A stretch of DNA of 64,000 nt from Propionispora vibrioides (GTDB lineage Bacteria > Bacillota > Negativicutes > Propionisporales > Propionisporaceae): contig NZ_FODY01000001.1 in assembly GCF_900110485.1 (NCBI RefSeq), positions 62,001-126,000 of the forward strand. The letters are read 5' to 3'. Numbering within the stretch: position 1 is the first letter of the stretch; each line of letters begins with the position of its first letter. Below, in pieces: positions 26,672-29,766 of the stretch. A model generated the notes under the pieces. That model did no database searches, was not told the DNA's origin, and saw only the letters and a list, made by a program, of their open reading frames with translations. Position numbers and translations under genes: made by a program.

Positions 26672-26715
26672 ATAAATACTGCTAATTTATTTATTGTTAT
26701 AGAGGAGAGATTGGA

Positions 26716-28518
26716 TTGAATAAAATCCAGGGAAACATTAATGGAATTCGCAAAAGTATTCTATCCCGTCTGGACGCGCTTTATGAATATACAATTCCGC
26801 CTGATCAGCCGGCCACGATAGAATTAATCAATTTGTTGGCGGCATTTACTTCGGAAATAAACCGGGAAGTTATGGTTTACATAAATAGAAAAGGACAGAT
26901 TATTCAAATTGCCGTTGGTGATGCTGTCACTGTCTCGTTGCCTGTACTACCGGGAAAACGCTCATTAAACAGATTAAGCGGCATTCGCTGCCTGCATACT
27001 CATCCCGATGGCAATAGCGAATTAAGTGCCGTTGATATTAGCGCATTACAAGAAATGCGTTTTGATCTTATGGCTGCCATCGGCGCGGGGGAAACACCTG
27101 ATGATACCAAGATTACCTTAGGCGTGATTGCCGGCATTTCCGATGAAGATACTTATCGTTTTGAAATGGCCGGACCATTTCAGGTGGAAAATTTCGTACA
27201 ACTGAATTTTCCGGCTTTAATCAGACAAATAGAAGAGACGTTACTGCGCCAAACGACATTCAGCAATCTGGAAAAACCGGAACGGGCCCTGCTTGTTGGT
27301 TTGGAAAGGTCTCAGGCCTGGAATATACGGGATTCTCTACAGGAATTGGAACAACTTGCCGAAACGGCAGGTGCCAGTGTTGTAGGGAAAACCTGGCAGA
27401 AGCGTGAGCGACCGGACACCACTTTTTTTGTTGGCCGTGGGAAAATACAAGAGCTTAGTCTTTTGCGTCAACAACAAAATGCCAACATGATTATTTTTGA
27501 CGATGAACTCATTCCTTCTCAGCAACGAAACATCGAGCAGGCTCTGGGCGTCAAAATTATCGATCGTACAGCGCTTATTTTAGATATCTTTGCGCAGCGG
27601 GCCCGTTCGCATGAAGGTAAGTTACAAGTGGAATTAGCACAATTAAAATACAGCCTCCCCCGCTTAAGCGGACAGGGCCTGGTTCTTTCCAGATTAGGAG
27701 GCGGGATTGGGACACGCGGCCCCGGTGAAACCAAGCTAGAGGTAGACCGCCGCCGGATTCGTTCCAGAATCAGCTTTCTTGAAGGAGAGATTAATAGCAT
27801 TCGTGCCAAACGCAATTTACATCGCGCCAAAAGGCAGGAAGCCCGCGTACCGACCATGGCCTTAGTTGGTTATACCAATGCAGGTAAATCCACTTTGCTC
27901 AACAAACTGACTCAATCAGAGGTATTGGCGGAAGATAAGCTTTTTGCTACCTTAGATCCCACCACCAGAAAATTTACACTAAACAATGGAAAGGAAGCCC
28001 TGTTAACGGACACCGTTGGTTTTATTCAAAAGCTGCCACACCAACTGGTAGCTGCTTTCCGGGCTACTTTAGAGGAGATTTCCTATGCGGATATTCTGCT
28101 GCATGTAGTGGATGCCAGCAGTCCGCTTCTACAAGAACAAAGTGATGCTGTGCTGCAGGTTATTGCGGAATTGGAGCTAAGCAATAAACCTTTGATTACA
28201 GTATTTAATAAAATTGATCAAATTGACGATCCAGAGCAGATAAACGATTTGCTGCTTCAAAAAGACAGTGTCGCCATTTCAGCGAAAGAAAATACCGGTC
28301 TTGACCAGCTGTTACAGGAAATAGAGAAACTTTTGGACAGTCAAACAGTTGACACTGAATTACTTATACCATATAATGACACCGGCATTATTTCACAATT
28401 ATATGACTGCGCCGTTGTTCATAACGTTGATTATCAAGCAGAGGCGATTCACGTAAAAGTTTCCCTAACACCTGAATTAGTCAAACGTTATAGTATATAC
28501 ATAACAGGAGAGAAGTAG
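26716..28518 (+). CDS. hflX: HflX GTPase with an N-terminal JAMM-like domain
   Basis: The 600-residue protein contains a complete HflX from about residue 188: ERALLVGLE, the [14 protein letters not shown] region, [20 protein letters not shown], and the GTPase motifs GYTNAGKS (385-392), DTVG (432-435) and NKID. HflX splits and rescues stalled 70S ribosomes. Ordinary HflX is about 420 aa. The extra 187 N-terminal residues carry E51, H94, H96, S104 and D107 in the arrangement E...HxHx7SxxD, the zinc motif of JAMM/MPN metallopeptidases. The start is TTG behind AGAGGAGAG. Confidence 0.93.
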
Positions 28519-28521
28519 ACA

Positions 28522-29766
28522 ATGTGTTTTTCCGAATCTTTATTGGCTTTACGCCGCAAAGCATTAGAAGAAGTGATACCCTATTATTCAGCCATCGATG
28601 ATATTGCCGAAAAAAATACGGCCCGTATATTAGAAATCTTTCGCAAGCACCAGATTGCAAGCTACCATTTCAGCGCCACCACTGGCTACGGTTACAATGA
28701 CGCCGGCCGCGATAAACTGGAAGAGGTGTGGGCTGATGTCTGCGGTACGGAAAAAGCCTTGGTTAGAACTCAGTTTGTATCGGGCACGCACGCACTGGCT
28801 ACCGTATTATTCGGTATATTGCGCCCCGGCGATGAACTGCTTGCCGTTACCGGTGCACCTTATGATACCATGCAATCGGTCATTGGCTATGCCCAAGATA
28901 GTCCCGGCTCTCTAAAGGATTTCGGAGTTGCCTATCGGGAAATCGCCATGACCGCTAATGGGGAGGTGGACTTTGCCGCCCTAAAGAACGCTATTCACGC
29001 CAAAACTAAAGTAGCTCTCATCCAGCGGTCCCGTGGCTACAGTCTTAGAAATCCCTTACAGATCAGCCAAATTGCCGCTATCTCTGAATATATAAAGATG
29101 ATCAAACCGGATTGTATCTGTTTTGTCGACAACTGCTATGGCGAATTTGTGGACAGCCTTGAACCGACAGCAGCCGGAGCGGATATCATGGCCGGTTCGT
29201 TAATCAAGAATCCCGGTGGTGGTTTGGCAGCTACCGGCGGTTACATTGCTGGCCGTTCGGATTTGGTTGAAATGGCCGCTTACCGTCTTACCGCCCCCGG
29301 CATAGGCAGTGAGGTGGGATCTTCTATTGGTGGCAACCGCTTGCTCTATCAGGGCTTGTTTATGGCTCCCCACACCACGGCGCAAGCCGTGAAAGGCGCC
29401 ATGTTTGCTGCTGCCTTTTTCTCTCTGTTGGGTTATACCACCTTTCCCGGACTAAATGAACGGCGCAGTGATATTATCCAGGCTATCCAGCTAGATTCGC
29501 CGGAAAAAATGGTTGCCTTTTGCCGGGGACTGCAAAAGTACTCCCCGGTCGATTCCCATGTGAAACCGGAGCCGAGCGGTATGCCTGGCTATAGCGACGC
29601 CGTTATTATGGCCGGCGGTACTTTTGTCCAAGGTTCTTCCATTGAACTTAGTGCGGATGGCCCGCTCCGTCCGCCTTATGCCGTCTATTTGCAAGGCGGC
29701 TTAACCTTGGAGCATGTCATATTAGGTGTAATGGGAGCGGCAACAGAAATGGCGAGTCTCGTATAA
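28522..29766 (+). CDS. YnbB-type PLP-dependent enzyme (methionine gamma-lyase family)
   Basis: The 414-residue fold-type I PLP enzyme has YHFSATTGYGYNDAGRDKLE, FVDNCYGEF and the PLP-lysine region GSLIKNPGGGLAATGGYIAG. This family was once labelled aluminium resistance protein and is close to cystathionine/methionine lyases; the true reaction is unknown. It starts 3 bp after hflX, the same pairing as hflX-ynbB in Bacillus. Confidence 0.88.
   Translation: MCFSESLLALRRKALEEVIPYYSAIDDIAEKNTARILEIFRKHQIASYHFSATTGYGYNDAGRDKLEEVWADVCGTEKALVRTQFVSGTHALATVLFGILRPGDELLAVTGAPYDTMQSVIGYAQDSPGSLKDFGVAYREIAMTANGEVDFAALKNAIHAKTKVALIQRSRGYSLRNPLQISQIAAISEYIKMIKPDCICFVDNCYGEFVDSLEPTAAGADIMAGSLIKNPGGGLAATGGYIAGRSDLVEMAAYRLTAPGIGSEVGSSIGGNRLLYQGLFMAPHTTAQAVKGAMFAAAFFSLLGYTTFPGLNERRSDIIQAIQLDSPEKMVAFCRGLQKYSPVDSHVKPEPSGMPGYSDAVIMAGGTFVQGSSIELSADGPLRPPYAVYLQGGLTLEHVILGVMGAATEMASLV

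Follow-up and report, generated by a model that had tools for sequence, protein, structure and literature searches.

Work on HflX as a factor in ribosome splitting and antibiotic resistance has dealt with species in which it has no JAMM domain, and the HflX proteins with solved structures lack a 187-residue folded extension. Mycobacterial HflX touches uL16 and helix 38 through its N-terminal extension, which reaches into H69-71 and has a purely structural role (PMC12493154), and a 2025 review mentions extensions on some Clostridium and Paenibacillus HflX proteins without naming a domain (PMC12493154). The JAMM motif and the roles of its residues were described for AfJAMM (E22, H67, H69, S77, and D80) in a 2003 paper in which the biochemical function of RadC was left unassigned (PMC300881), so that kinship with RadC is by itself no proof of peptidase activity; gene clusters of prokaryotic JAMM enzymes are discussed elsewhere (PMC1779556).

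The window analyzed here, a stretch of 64,000 nucleotides from Propionispora vibrioides, contains an hflX gene (26716..28518, forward strand) with a TTG start and, ahead of it, a likely ribosome-binding site read from the sequence (GAGGAGAG, 26702..26709, forward strand). According to its translation, its Pfam and NCBIfam matches, and structure alignment, the 600-amino-acid (aa) product consists of an N-terminal JAMM domain followed by a complete HflX. The canonical core (residues 187 to 600; 27274..28515, forward strand) contains the GTP-bdg_N, GTP-bdg_M, G, and C-terminal domains; PF13167, PF16360, PF01926, and PF19275 each scored above their own Pfam cut-offs, and the NCBIfam model TIGR03156 (GTP_HflX) matched from residue 190 with 486 bits against a cut-off of 217. 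The full-length AlphaFold2 model (pLDDT 88, pTM 0.73) was covered from about residue 187 to its end by ribosome-bound HflX chains from Listeria (HflXr, 8a57, Z 39.2), mycobacteria (8vk0, Z 36.7), and Escherichia coli (5ady, Z 36.4). The whole core is thus the same as in known HflX proteins (8a57, 5ady, and 8vki), with the aligned chains starting at residues 179 to 189 of the P. vibrioides protein. As these chains align only from about residue 187 onward, residues 1 to 186 are an addition, in agreement with the earlier note, which had placed residues 1 to 187 ahead of a complete HflX. Given its homology to known HflX and the similarity of its fold to 8a57 (Z 39), we infer that the 600-aa protein splits 70S ribosomes. 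No second HflX match above the family cut-off was found in the P. vibrioides genome, and on balance we regard the product as the ordinary HflX of the cell with an old RadC-related JAMM domain in front of it.

In the AlphaFold2 model and the fold searches, this extension (residues 1 to 186; 26716..27273, forward strand) comprises a JAMM/MPN fold, matched over residues 30 to 164, and a C-terminal linker helix (residues 165 to 186). The translation holds E51 and H94-T95-H96-x7-S104-xx-D107 within residues 1 to 187, with exactly the spacing that had been read as a JAMM/MPN signature from the DNA alone, and it matches the JAMM/MPN+ motif E-xn-H(S/T)H-x7-S-xx-D. T95 fits the S/T position of the AfJAMM motif, and E51 lies 43 residues from H94, compared to 45 between E22 and H67 in AfJAMM (PMC300881). 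Based on conservation and on analogy with AfJAMM, E51 (codon 26866..26868) is the predicted general acid-base, as E22 is there (PMC300881); H94 and H96 (codons of H94-T95-H96, 26995..27003) are predicted zinc ligands corresponding to H67 and H69; and S104 and D107 (codons of S104-x-x-D107, 27025..27036) are the predicted transition-state stabilizer and third zinc ligand, corresponding to S77 and D80, with all codons on the forward strand.

A motif arising by chance within an unrelated extension could in principle account for this spacing, and the lone sequence reached the Pfam RadC and Prok-JAB models at E values of merely 0.12 and 0.13, respectively (12.8 bits for RadC, below its cut-off of 22.1 bits). 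However, when these 187 residues were shuffled, H-x-H-x7-S-xx-D turned up at a frequency of just 2e-5, and a chance origin is further contradicted by the fold matches, the profile match to RadC, and the conservation in 138 of 146 extensions, all described below; we consider it exceedingly improbable. The model of the extension (pLDDT 93.2, pTM 0.88) has the MPN/JAB fold, with a helix, two strands, the HxH strand, a helix, and three strands in that order, so that the structure prediction that had been proposed as a check yielded an MPN fold. Every one of the 50 matches listed by VIA-align is an MPN/JAMM structure (Z 5.6 to 7.5, model residues 28 to 170), the best being PfJAMM1 (Z 7.5, rmsd 3.6 Å over 111 residues), with Rpn11 at Z 6.9 and RadC (2qlc) at Z 6.7. 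As a Z of 7.5 alone is middling, the weight rests on the unanimity of the matches listed. Foldseek ranked CSN5 from plants and humans at the top (E 2.6e-3), interspersed with some unrelated entries.

Profiles of relatives carried the comparison further than the lone sequence did. Among 58 diverse relatives, 44 matched Prok-JAB and 29 matched RadC at Pfam E values up to 1 (best, 8e-4 and 2e-4, respectively), and a profile built from these 58, searched against all PDB sequences, gave 12 matches, each weak (E 0.08 to 0.5) and all to AMSH-type JAMM proteases aligned on HTHP...S..D; the profile was required for these matches, the single sequence retrieving only noise from the PDB sequences. An hhalign comparison of the extension profile with aligned RadC proteins of the same class and phylum gave a probability of 91 (E 1.1e-6, 69 columns), with E51, H94, H96, S104, and D107 all in register, and the extension profile also retrieved RadC from whole genomes (E 2e-4 and 8e-4). 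Prok-JAB, considered as the nearest family, was rejected, as its proteins gave an hhalign probability of just 2; RadC is therefore preferred. The RadC JAMM domain (PF04002) shares the E...HxHP-x6-S-xx-D layout with the extension, but identity is low, and RadC stands alone as a protein of about 230 aa and has an N-terminal region of its own, whereas the domain studied here is part of a 600-aa HflX. A RadC open reading frame (ORF) of 256 aa is present separately in the same genome as hflX. That the extension has a JAMM fold and is homologous to JAMM domains is, in our judgment, nearly certain.

The earlier note had called the extension deubiquitinase-like or RadC-like, and the hhalign result favors the latter term. 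The extension has the fold and the five-residue active site in common with the JAMM/MPN+ isopeptidases AMSH, Rpn11, CSN5, and PfJAMM1, but the loop that matches their ubiquitin-binding insert in order is short and basic, and no gene for an E1 or a ubiquitin-like partner stood out among the immediate hflX neighbors. "Deubiquitinase-like" applies to the fold alone and should not be used to name the HflX extension.

Conservation of the active site was high. In a full-length similarity search that made no use of the motif, all five residues were invariant in 24 of 24 Negativicutes extensions, which is the retention in close homologues that the earlier note had proposed to look for. The complete set of E, H, H, S, and D was found in 138 of the 146 distinct extensions from all sources, and the other 8 lack both zinc-binding histidines; part of the 138 were retrieved with search patterns that contained HTH or the residues following E51 but neither S104 nor D107, so that those extensions are no independent evidence for the residues used. 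Fourteen columns are invariant among the 58 diverse sequences and include E51, R58, G60, G68, H94, T95, H96, S104, D107, and D117; R91 and C92 are likewise conserved in the extensions. Compared with the nearest genome, both parts of the protein are under purifying selection (dN/dS 0.13 for the extension and 0.08 for the core). A basic loop (residues 82 to 89, alignment consensus RRSxxRLSG; 26959..26982, forward strand) follows the first strands and precedes the HxH strand in chain order, and R82, R86, L87, S88, and G89 are retained in most extensions despite the low model confidence nearby, which is lowest at residues 71 to 88.

The architecture is not peculiar to P. vibrioides. An HflX of about 600 residues with the extension is the rule in Negativicutes, and the few HflX proteins without it (loci L052, L053, L054, and L055) appear to be recent losses or paralogues. 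Among 398 sampled Bacillota genomes, HflX was found in 305 and the extension profile matched in 75, including two RadC proteins, which leaves about 73 extensions, or approximately a quarter of the HflX-bearing genomes; apart from RadC, the matches were always located in an HflX-length ORF or in an ORF broken at a contig end. Extension-bearing relatives include Pelosinus, Sporomusa, Selenomonas, Phascolarctobacterium, Caloramator, and Acetivibrio, and, outside Bacillota, the extension occurs on HflX of Fusobacterium animalis and Fusobacterium vincentii at 35 to 36% identity, with the motif HTHPGGNPHLSSVD in F. animalis. A related extension that lacks HTH probably also occurs on cyanobacterial HflX. 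We found no description of a JAMM domain on HflX in the open-access literature, although an earlier mention elsewhere is possible. The earlier note's proposal is supported as regards a JAMM domain with an intact residue set on a complete HflX, but not as a feature of this genome alone; what is new is not one odd gene but a domain architecture that is widespread and undescribed.

A quick HflX-core tree required about 8 changes for presence of the intact domain and 2 for its decay, and the distances between extensions correlated with those between cores (r = 0.47 for all and r = 0.63 for intact extensions; none of 1,000 permutations reached 0.47). We read these patterns as those of an old fusion, passed on mainly with the core, with several losses and at least one or two cases of decay; some regain of the domain may also be compatible with the weak HflX-core tree. 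A mobile or phage origin was considered and rejected, given that no relatives of the extension were found in phages or viral contigs and that the gene lies within a conserved hflX neighborhood. The gene 3' of hflX is the same in 47 of 79 relative loci; in the window (28522..29766, forward strand; ORF list and locus comparison) we take it to encode a methionine gamma-lyase-like protein of the YnbB type, a gene that presumably also stands beside ordinary Bacillus hflX.

Two distant lineages, one comprising family f117 and the other families f73 and f125, keep the domain on HflX without the zinc histidines. As eight extensions persist in this form, catalysis is not the sole possible role of the domain, and since f73 and f125 still contain RRSxKRLSGLR after the loss of HTH, the basic loop probably has a job of its own, such as docking. 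We suggest that this conserved loop (residues 82 to 89) probably docks the JAMM domain on RNA or protein and that the domain probably also has a noncatalytic role of this kind. The same observations, together with the purely structural role of the mycobacterial extension (PMC12493154), could be taken to mean that the JAMM fold is nothing but a binding module that helps HflX to grip the large subunit or to rearrange rRNA, with catalysis at most a relic. Yet the 138 other distinct extensions keep all five residues together, the pattern that selection for a functional site should leave, and the domains without zinc ligands have diverged much further (E 1e-12 to 1e-21, versus 1e-30 to 1e-60 for most), so we regard docking as the only role as unlikely. 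The decayed extensions (loci L171 to L175, L181, L184, and L185), of which L174, L181, L184, and L185 keep the basic loop, are predicted to be natural, catalytically dead versions.

Some prokaryotic JAMM enzymes act on sulfur-carrier conjugates, and the zinc ligands of the extension are strictly retained, which would also suit a zinc-binding regulatory domain that has no protein substrate and tunes HflX through the occupancy of its metal site or through a small-molecule amide substrate. However, E51 and S104, whose AfJAMM counterparts do not bind zinc, are as conserved as the ligands, and the hflX neighbors are not metal or sulfur-carrier genes. We consider this explanation quite improbable; if it were true, ribosome splitting would be linked to zinc or metabolite status.

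Beyond the fusion, fold, conserved active-site set, wide spread, and repeated loss documented here, we hypothesize that the extension is most likely a RadC-related zinc hydrolase brought to the ribosome by HflX (probability of roughly 0.6). Like known HflX, the protein would bind the large subunit and split stalled 70S ribosomes, and the JAMM domain, hanging off the start of the first HflX domain, would face the intersubunit side. It is attached at the same place as the mycobacterial extension, ahead of the first HflX domain, and should hence sit near uL16 and 23S helix 38, although the mycobacterial extension has only 39 to 58 residues and no JAMM motif is described for it (PMC12493154). By analogy with AfJAMM, a zinc ion would be held by H94, H96, and D107, with E51 serving as acid-base and S104 stabilizing the intermediate, and a peptide or isopeptide bond would be hydrolyzed in some component accessible on the stalled subunit or on one just released by splitting. 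We consider an active zinc hydrolase in most members quite likely, and the chances that the domain acts on a ribosome-bound target appear about even. A more tentative suggestion, which we hold to be possible but not probable, is that the HflX of these Bacillota and Fusobacterium species is a two-step rescue enzyme that splits the stalled ribosome and cuts a peptide or isopeptide bond there; a ribosomal protein, the nascent chain, or a conjugated modifier would be equally tentative candidate targets. The trimming of a tag during splitting, which the earlier note had given as an example, would likewise be a tentative reading.

The JAMM-HflX architecture raises the possibility that, in some bacteria, ribosome splitting is accompanied by a cleavage step. 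If approximately a quarter of the Bacillota with HflX have a functional JAMM hydrolase on it, ribosome rescue there has an unexplored chemical step, and the two-step scheme, if true, would make the splitting factor double as a bacterial protease for ribosome quality control. JAMM-HflX further offers a direct experimental handle on the role of RadC-type JAMM domains, open since 2003 (PMC300881), and the lineages without the zinc site or without the whole domain provide natural mutants for comparison.

Several individual loci showed further variation. One genome (G005) encodes two HflX copies (L005 and L051), both with an intact JAMM extension, and in another (G121, locus L048) a frame break separates the extension from the HflX core, which may be a sign of decay or an artifact of sequencing. 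ORFs of 740 to 830 aa (L255, L259, L261, and L264) from one other Bacillota family carry a C-terminal fusion on HflX that reads, by its sequence, as a putative tRNA-dihydrouridine synthase.
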